Positions 20,895 through 58,517 of a DNA stretch of 64,000 nt are shown one piece after another. Every line of letters begins with the position of its first letter. Positions within the stretch are counted from its first letter, which is position 1. The position numbers and the translations under genes are program-made. The stretch comes from an uncultured Bacteroidales bacterium (GTDB taxonomy: Bacteria > Bacteroidota > Bacteroidia > Bacteroidales > UBA932). The notes beneath the pieces were generated by a model. The model ran no database searches. It was not told where the DNA came from and saw only the letters and a program-made list of their open reading frames with translations. The stretch spans positions 1 through 64,000 of the forward strand of contig CALVAC010000017.1 in assembly GCA_944325435.1 (NCBI GenBank). The letters are read 5' to 3'.

Positions 20895-20969
20895 GGTCCC
20901 ATAGCTCAGTTGGTTAGTAGCACCTGACTCATAATCAGGGGGTCACAGGTTCAAGCCCTGTTGGGACCA
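20895..20969 (+). tRNA. tRNA with CAT anticodon (probably elongator tRNA-Met)
   Basis: 75 nt with acceptor arms GGTCCCA/TGGGACC and discriminator A, anticodon arm CCTGA-CTCATAA-TCAGG, and T arm ACAGG-TTCAAGC-CCTGT. The 3' CCA is not encoded. The anticodon CAT could be elongator Met or lysidine-modified Ile2; the variable loop GGGTC and the acceptor favour Met, but this is not certain. The D arm is odd: where GGTTAGAGC is usual it reads GGTTAGTAGC, an extra T that breaks the fourth D-stem pair and displaces A21. Confidence 0.9.
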
Positions 20970-56827: not shown

Positions 56828-56861
56828 TTTTTATCCGGAATCTATACAATTTTTTAGAATT

Positions 56862-56877
56862 TGGCACGCAGTTTGCA
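56862..56877 (+). promoter_or_regulatory. Sigma-54 promoter
   Basis: TGGCACG-CAGT-TTGCA at 56862-56877 matches the -24/-12 consensus (TGGCACG-N4-TTGCW) at every fixed base, with exactly 10 bp between GG (56863-56864) and GC (56875-56876). The predicted start is about 12 bp past GC, near 56888. No sigma-54 activator gene is in the window. Confidence 0.72.
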
Positions 56878-56888
56878 AATTCTCTAAA

Positions 56889-56958
56889 TCGGTTAGTTTA
56901 GTTGTTAATAATATGGTTATAGTGAGCAGGAGCCCTCGTGAGAGTGCTCCTGTTTTTT
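56889..56958 (+). ncRNA. Small RNA candidate behind the sigma-54 promoter
   Basis: The predicted transcript runs from about 56888 to the terminator T-run at 56953-56958, about 70 nt, with no ORF of its own: a 34-codon ATG frame from 56913 runs through the terminator and ends at 57017. The 5' half is A/T-rich and unpaired. It lies between DUF4783 and guaB, which has its own -7 box at 57022. A premature leader for guaB is the other possibility. Inference from promoter and terminator only. Confidence 0.5.
56926..56958 (+). terminator. Intrinsic terminator upstream of guaB
   Basis: CAGGAGC (56927-56933) pairs with GCTCCTG (56946-56952), a 12-nt loop, G-T closing pair and six T (56953-56958). It would end either the sigma-54 transcript or read-through from DUF4783. 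Confidence 0.85.
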
Positions 56959-57021
56959 GTGTGTCTATGAAATCCGCAAAAAAGCATCGTGATTCCGGCA
57001 GTATATATAAGGAATAATCAC

Positions 57022-57029
57022 TATATTTG
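57022..57029 (+). promoter_or_regulatory. -7 box of the guaB operon
   Basis: TATATTTG at 57022-57029; the -33 is not clear. A start near 57033 leaves about 15 nt to the guaB ATG. Confidence 0.6.
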
Positions 57030-57047
57030 CAGTTAAAATTTTTACGG

Positions 57048-58517
57048 ATGCAGACTATAGTTAATTCTCAGATTCCCGAAGGGCTCACCTTCGATGATGT
57101 ATTGCTTGTTCCTGCACGCTCTGAGGTCCTGCCTCGAGATGTAGATGTCACTACAGAGTTTTCAAGAAATATCAGACTCCACACACCGATAGTGTCTGCC
57201 GCAATGGATACTGTGACGGAGTCGGAGCTGGCCATCGCTATTGCAAGGGCCGGCGGTATCGGTGTGATCCATAAGAACATGACCATAGAGCAGCAGGTTG
57301 CCCAGGTGCGCAGGGTGAAAAGAGCGGAGAACGGCATGATATATGACCCGATCACCATCCGTCCGGATGCGACTGTGGGGGCTGCCCTCGGGATGATGGC
57401 ACAGCATCACATAGGCGGTATCCCTGTGGTGGATGCCAACAACTATCTCATAGGCATCGTGACCAACAGGGACCTCAGGTTCCAGGACAATATGGGCCTG
57501 CCTGTGTCGGAAGTCATGACATCGGAGAACCTTGTGACCGCTCCTCAGGGGATAGGGCTCGAGGAGGCCACCAATATAATAAGGAACCATAAGTTCGAGA
57601 AACTTCCTGTCGTAGACAAGGACGGGAAACTGGTGGGTCTGATCACATACAAGGACCTTATGAAGATCAAGGACAATCCTATAGCGTCCAAGGATTCCAA
57701 AGGCCGTCTTCTCGTGGCGGCTGCCGTGGGAGTGAAATCCGACACCATAGAGAGGATAGAGATGCTCACAAGTGCAGGTGCGGATGCCGTGGTGGTAGAT
57801 ACGGCCCACGGTCATTCCGTATATGTGATTGATGTCATCCGGAAAGCCTGCAAGGCTCTTCCTGGCATAGAGATAGTTGCCGGAAACGTGGCTACGGGCG
57901 AGGCTGCAAAGGCTCTTGCCGATGCAGGAGTGAGCGGAGTCAAGGTCGGTATCGGACCGGGCTCAATCTGCACGACCCGCGTGATCGCCGGTGTCGGTAT
58001 GCCTCAGCTCACTGCGGTGATGCTTGCGGCAGAGGCCCTCAAGGGAACAGGCGTCCCTATCATAGCAGATGGCGGAATCAGGTATTCCGGAGATGTTGTC
58101 AAGGCTCTGGCTGCCGGAGCGAGCACCATTATGGCCGGATCCCTCTTCGCCGGGGTCGAGGAATCACCTGGGGACACCATCATTCTTAACGGAAGAAAGT
58201 TCAAGTCATACAGGGGTATGGGATCTCTGGAGGCTATGCAGCAGGGTTCCAAGGACAGGTATTTCCAGGATATGGAGGAAGACGTGAAGAAGCTTGTGCC
58301 GGAAGGTATCGTGGCCCAGGTGCCATACAAGGGAACTCTTGCCGAGGTGGTCTACCAGCTTGTCGGCGGACTCCGTGCGGGAATGGGCTATGTCGGAGCC
58401 AAGGACATAAAGTCGCTCCGTTCTGCAAAGTTCGTCCGTATCACCAATGCCGGATATATCGAGAGCCATCCGCACGATGTGACCATCACGCGTGAGTCTC
58501 CAAATTATTCCAGGTAA
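57048..58517 (+). CDS. guaB: Inosine-5'-monophosphate dehydrogenase
   Basis: First committed step to GMP: IMP to XMP with NAD. Its 489 residues carry the catalytic barrel split by two CBS domains (about 95-210: [19 protein letters not shown], and [11 protein letters not shown]), the active loop GPGSICTTR with Cys 308, and the flap end region [16 protein letters not shown] 57048 is chosen over TTG 57027, which overlaps the -7 box. The stop TAA shares an A with the ATG of the next gene. Confidence 0.97.

Follow-up and report, generated by a model that had tools for sequence, protein, structure and literature searches.

FopS small RNAs (sRNAs) of Bacteroides thetaiotaomicron are 65–70 nucleotides (nt) long, consist of an exposed 5' seed followed by a terminator, and exist as 14 paralogs that are expressed from sigma-ABfr promoters, are bound by RbpB, and pair with SusC mRNAs close to the start codon to block their translation (PMC11697453). 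GibS, also from Bacteroides, is a 145-nt RNA with middle hairpins, a second seed (R2) and the promoter motif PM2 (PMC7366714). In this work we analysed the first 64,000 nt of contig CALVAC010000017.1 of an uncultured Bacteroidales bacterium (UBA932; assembly GCA_944325435.1), a stretch called here the window. Positions 56862–56958 of its forward strand are almost certainly a complete and genuine sigma-54 sRNA gene, its transcription being predicted from the letters. Its product is probably a FopS-like sRNA, activated through sigma-54, that acts in trans to repress the translation of SusC; we infer its transcription, its activator, the signal and repression rather than activation.

Trans-acting sRNAs made from sigma-54 promoters that need an activator are known from another phylum: the paralogous Qrr sRNAs of Vibrio depend on LuxO, CrcZ/CrcY on CbrB and GlmY/GlmZ on GlrR. 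The likeness lies in placing such sRNA genes under activator-requiring sigma-54 promoters; the differences are that these RNAs share no sequence similarity with the window RNA and have other targets, and that a dependence on Hfq is not known here. We regard them as an analogy of logic, not as relatives. To our knowledge, little has been established about the role of sigma-54 in gut Bacteroidales, and a search of the open-access literature found no paper on a sigma-54-dependent sRNA in Bacteroidota.

Promoter, RNA and conservation of the window locus

The promoter (56862–56877, forward strand) has a -24 element, TGGCACG, at 56862–56868 and a -12 element, TTGCA, at 56873–56877, with the GG (56863–56864) and the GC (56875–56876) in the exact register, 10 base pairs (bp) apart, of the sigma-54 consensus TGGCAC-N5-TTGCA. 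The sequence-only reading had described this TGGCACG-N4-TTGCA arrangement and a 7-bp stem terminator followed by six T, and both are there in the letters. This is the single perfect sigma-54 match in the window; sites with up to three mismatches number 36, against 50 expected from shuffles, so the weaker sites carry no meaning. Counted from C(-12), transcription is predicted to start at about 56888, and with the 3' end set by the T tract this gives a predicted sRNA gene of about 70 nt (56888–56958, forward strand). Its 5' segment, CGGTTAGTTTAGTTGTTAATAATATGGTTATAG (56890–56922), is a conserved, unstructured putative seed, near-invariant in same-genus copies and free of C beyond its first base. 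The intrinsic terminator hairpin, CAGGAGC-C-CTC-GTGA-GAG-T-GCTCCTG (56927–56952), is supported by the predicted fold and by covariation; CAGGAGC (56927–56933) pairs with GCTCCTG (56946–56952) around the inner CTC-GTGA-GAG, and TTTTTT follows at 56953–56958. Folding of 56888–56960 gives -21.5 kcal/mol (z = -3.9), equalled by none of 200 shuffles; a simple terminator scan missed the hairpin because of its loop rule. The only ATG of the window copy lies in ATATGG, which reads ATAGGG in nearly all relatives, hence there is no conserved peptide.

A blastn search with positions 56835–57050 against 60 genomes of the same genus and the window's own genome matched 18 genomes (own included), with nearly all alignments spanning no more than the promoter and ~35 nt at the 5' end of the RNA. 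Copies were typed by their seed, A being that of the window, B GGTTAGTTTTAGTTGG, C TTTTTTCATAGGTTAAG and D AGGTTTTTTTCATAGGTTAGGTTAG. Type A copies, found by pattern in 33 of 151 genus genomes, share the layout TTTGGCA[CT]-N5-TTG[CA], about 13 nt, a nearly invariant CGGTTAGTTTAGTTGTTAATAATAGGGTTATAG(T), then a hairpin that differs each time and a T-rich tail. In each of the 42 type A copies, 13–15 nt separate TTGC from the conserved block, which therefore begins 2–3 bases after the expected start. Many of these loci follow DUF4783 as in the window (judged by eye), and others are unrelated. A covariance model (R1) built from the RNA alone, promoter excluded, matches 62 of the 151 genomes and scores the window sRNA at 72.5 bits, the window copy being itself in the model's alignment. 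A sigma-54 box, TGGCA[CT]-N5-TTG, lies within 60 nt upstream of 27 of 33 diverged R1 matches, versus 2 of 6600 random windows from the same loci. In 67 distinct aligned relatives, 91.8% of stem cells are paired and double changes number 401 versus 122 in shuffled controls, in an alignment fitted to the structure. Of the features whose conservation the sequence-only reading had asked about, the -24/-12 promoter recurs at a fixed distance in relatives, and the stem varies in sequence with its pairs kept. Its proposal of a short RNA whose transcription needs an activator-dependent sigma factor gains support from the joint conservation of promoter, spacing, 5' segment and hairpin, seen in many genomes and also at unrelated loci. 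These comparisons make the window RNA a member of a widespread family of ~70-nt predicted sigma-54 sRNAs that had not been catalogued before. Plasmids, phages and viral contigs yielded no copy of it, hence no sign of a mobile element. Rfam searches of the window, at the gathering threshold and at permissive ones, assign no family to the sRNA locus; the sole match at gathering score is a tRNA gene at 20895–20969.

The same conservation bears on two readings that make less of the locus. Upstream lies the DUF4783 gene (PF16022; 56366–56827, forward strand), whose stop is ~35 nt before the promoter. Were the sigma-54 resemblance due to chance, the hairpin, 100 nt past that stop, could simply terminate DUF4783, and genome-wide near-consensus sigma-54 sites are indeed no commoner than a reversed-pattern control (98 versus 119). 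However, relatives keep the promoter with its fixed spacing, also at loci without DUF4783, and a chance promoter would give no role to the conserved 5' stretch that separates promoter and hairpin. Conservation of the promoter–RNA unit at unrelated loci refutes this explanation, to which we attach practically no weight. Downstream, on the same strand, guaB (IMP dehydrogenase, PF00478; 57048–58517) starts 89 nt after the terminator; we treat it as context and do not consider it part of the system. The sequence-only reading had offered a regulated guaB leader; spelled out, this would be a sigma-54-controlled leader or attenuator starting at 56888, stopping at the hairpin and read through conditionally into guaB. 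Position and strand would allow it, but many copies lie away from guaB, the genome's own type C copy among them, no alternative antiterminator fold is evident in the folding of 56888–56960, and a TAnnTTTG box of its own, TATATTTG, precedes guaB at 57022–57029, 3' of the sRNA terminator. The leader proposal therefore finds no support and is very improbable.

SusC mRNAs as predicted targets

SusC starts and other starts were collected from stretches of the window's own genome, and each leader was scored by its longest exact complement to the window seed. This length averages 7.18 nt in 38 SusC leaders versus 5.23 nt in 503 others, and complements of at least 8 nt occur in 13 of the 38 versus 15 of the 503; with 400 dinucleotide-shuffled seeds, none reaches the SusC mean and one reaches the count. 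Among the ~540 starts examined, seven of the eight longest matches (10–12 nt) belong to SusC genes. Counted from the start codon, the longest SusC matches fall between -34 and -8 and include TATTATTAACAA, TAACAACTAAA and ACCATATTATT; the SusC leader at C20:43130 carries TAACAACUAAA at -24, and that at C7:26139 carries UAUUAUUAACAA at -28. From this significantly enriched leader complementarity we infer that SusC mRNAs are targets of the sRNA. Because its exposed 5' end matches SusC leaders, the sRNA likely turns glycan uptake down on a signal. In the mechanism that we propose, sigma-54 RNA polymerase, opened by one of two activator ATPases, would transcribe the ~70-nt RNA from about 56888 to its own terminator hairpin, giving an RNA of the FopS kind, with a conserved seed exposed at the 5' end and a terminator hairpin free to drift in sequence. 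Acting in trans, GGUUAGUUUAGUUGUUAAUAAUAUGGUUAUAG would pair, a short way 5' of the start codon, with the leaders of several mRNAs for SusC-type glycan transporters; pairing would block ribosome loading, and the sigma-54 signal would thereby lower glycan uptake.

Several observations weigh against this FopS-like action on SusC. The nine SusC leaders fetched last, taken alone, contain one match of at least 8 nt (12 nt; p = 0.23), and two further genomes gave six and two SusC genes, too few to replicate or refute the enrichment. SusC leaders are alike in composition, and a motif common to them could account for part of the signal. An energy-based duplex scan of all starts showed no global excess over shuffled seeds, which is why the exact-match statistics, SusC versus other genes, were adopted. 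The type C seed has no significant preference for SusC leaders; its complement is the general start ATGAAAAAA. No activator binding site was found in a search upstream of type A copies. The window RNA scores 15.0 bits (E = 1.8) against the FopS family RF04319, whose gathering cut-off is 56 bits, and for this reason we call its predicted mode of action FopS-like but leave the RNA outside that family. Finally, RbpB-type RRM_1 proteins number zero in the window's own genome and occur in one of the 151 genus genomes, with a positive Bacteroides ihuae control. That sole RRM_1 (RbpA/RbpB-like) gene is at G013:C7:34795–35004.

Part of this evidence would also suit a different role for a real sigma-54 sRNA, in which the 5' segment binds a protein or sponges another RNA and SusC complementarity is a by-product of shared composition. 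The nearly C-free 5' segment, the repeated GGUUA/GUUUAG words (clearest in types B and D), a near-invariance over 33 nt that exceeds the typical seed length, and the lack of significance in the held-out SusC set all fit such a role. On the other hand, the SusC signal disappears with dinucleotide-shuffled seeds, matches fall close to start codons with SusC genes making up nearly all of the longest, types C and D carry UUUUUUCAU, which is antisense to AUGAAAAAA, and the known relative FopS works by base pairing (PMC11697453). We regard protein binding or sponging as rather unlikely, and repression of SusC translation by pairing remains our preferred reading.

Sigma-54 activators, other types and the relation to FopS

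The sequence-only reading had pointed to rpoN and enhancer-binding activators as the machinery to look for, and the window's own genome encodes a full RpoN (PF00309, PF04963, PF04552) and two Sigma54_activat proteins. The first (C1:145065) combines a response regulator with an AAA+ domain and has no detectable helix–turn–helix (HTH); the second (C1:189463) is an AAA+ protein with a Fis-type HTH and adjoins an LptE-like gene, which we name so from its usual neighbourhood. The NtrC-type response regulator with a Sigma54_activat domain and no detectable C-terminal HTH, at L124:976–2241 (G000:C1), may activate without a DNA site. Upstream of the environmental type D copies (e.g. L200, L201, L208, L259, L278), TTTAAC-N5-ATTAAA-N5-GTTAAT occurs at -92 to -65 with 11-bp helical phasing and is a plausible candidate activator site; no such phased site was found in types A, B and C. 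Of 24 type D copies, 22 have a TAnnTTTG box immediately before the sigma-54 box; within 25 nt upstream of the latter, such a box occurs in 0 of 42 type A, 0 of 11 type B and 0 of 63 type C copies. The type D promoter is possibly a dual sigma-ABfr/sigma-54 promoter with an activator site.

The window's own genome has five exact TGGCACN5TTGC sites, three inside open reading frames and two intergenic (C17, the window, and C26), and both intergenic sites front sRNA genes of this kind. The second copy, of type C, is at C26:6423 behind the exact sigma-54 box TGGCACAGGCTTTGC, with a peptidyl-prolyl isomerase-like gene on one side and a BACON-type gene on the other. The type C seed is present in 119 of the 151 genus genomes, including 30 of the 33 type A genomes. 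In four cases (L192, L209, G064:C43 and G003:C79) type C copies form pairs in opposite orientation, ~2–5 kb apart. Searches at the level of the order returned weak matches; where a sigma-54 box is present, the match usually contains words of the type AGTTTTTTCATAGGTTAAGTTTTAGGTTA. Order-wide matches of a model R2 at E ~1e-3 proved to be mostly generic terminators and were kept only if they had a sigma-54 box or the CATAGGTTA motif. A scan of named genomes for the promoter and GGTTA..GTTTTAG gave at least 117 matches, and a stable hairpin follows 78 of the 82 that were extracted; their sources are Cryptobacteroides, Coprenecus, metagenome-assembled genomes (MAGs) of Rikenellaceae/Alistipes, and Bacteroidales of rumen, peat, digesters and open water. 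Types C and D, whose UUUUUUCAU would pair at start codons, are found with sigma-54 promoters upstream of them throughout Bacteroidales. Related RNAs (GTTTTTCTCATAAATTAGGTAGTTAGTTAGTAGTTGTAAATGTTAGTAATGTG and a hairpin) without a sigma-54 box or Rfam match occur in other Bacteroidales families (L156, L157, L159, L161, L166, L167), and in L168 and L175 the motif GTTTTTTCATAGGTTAGTTTTAAGTTAATAATTAGGTTAG directly follows a gene's stop codon, like an sRNA derived from a 3' untranslated region (cf. FopS-14). A typical type D sRNA lies on a contig labelled Methanoregulaceae archaeon (L210, JACTVG010000079.1), which is probably a Bacteroidales contig misbinned in a Methanoregulaceae MAG.

Compared with FopS, the window RNA has the same anatomy, an unstructured 5' seed then a terminator hairpin within 65–70 nt, as judged from fold, covariation and, for the length, the layout of the gene, and its predicted SusC targets would likewise be met at the translation start. 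Types C and D have UUUUUCAU and the GGUUA words of the FopS consensus, and the type D relative L179 gives a full-length alignment with BTncRNA_FopS (RF04319) that scores 38.1 bits (E = 1.3e-4, with 171 bases searched), below the cut-off of 56 bits, which none of 18 type B, C and D loci reaches. In contrast with FopS, the window's type A seed lacks UUUUUCAU, a word of the FopS R1 seed against start codons that the same genome's type C copy has; the promoter is of the sigma-54 and not the sigma-ABfr kind; and most genomes have one or few copies versus 12–15 for FopS. With GibS the window RNA shares an exposed 5' seed predicted to pair at translation starts and a 3'-end terminator, and differs from it by its shorter length, and by lacking middle hairpins, the R2 seed and a PM2 promoter.

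A possible sigma-54 regulon of seed RNAs

We tentatively raise the possibility, somewhat less secure than the reading of the single locus, that Bacteroidales as a whole have a sigma-54 regulon of short seed RNAs that controls SusC translation without RbpB, with seeds switching between lineages from start-codon (type C) to leader (types A and B) pairing, and that links a sigma-54 signal to glycan uptake. The sigma-ABfr-driven FopS of Bacteroides may have descended from such an older regulon, type D having both boxes. If the reading of the single locus is right, an activator-gated, signal-dependent switch would be placed above glycan-transporter translation and RbpB would be dispensable for FopS-like control. 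The system would also be compact, one or two RNAs with one RpoN and two activators, and its signal could be found by genetics.
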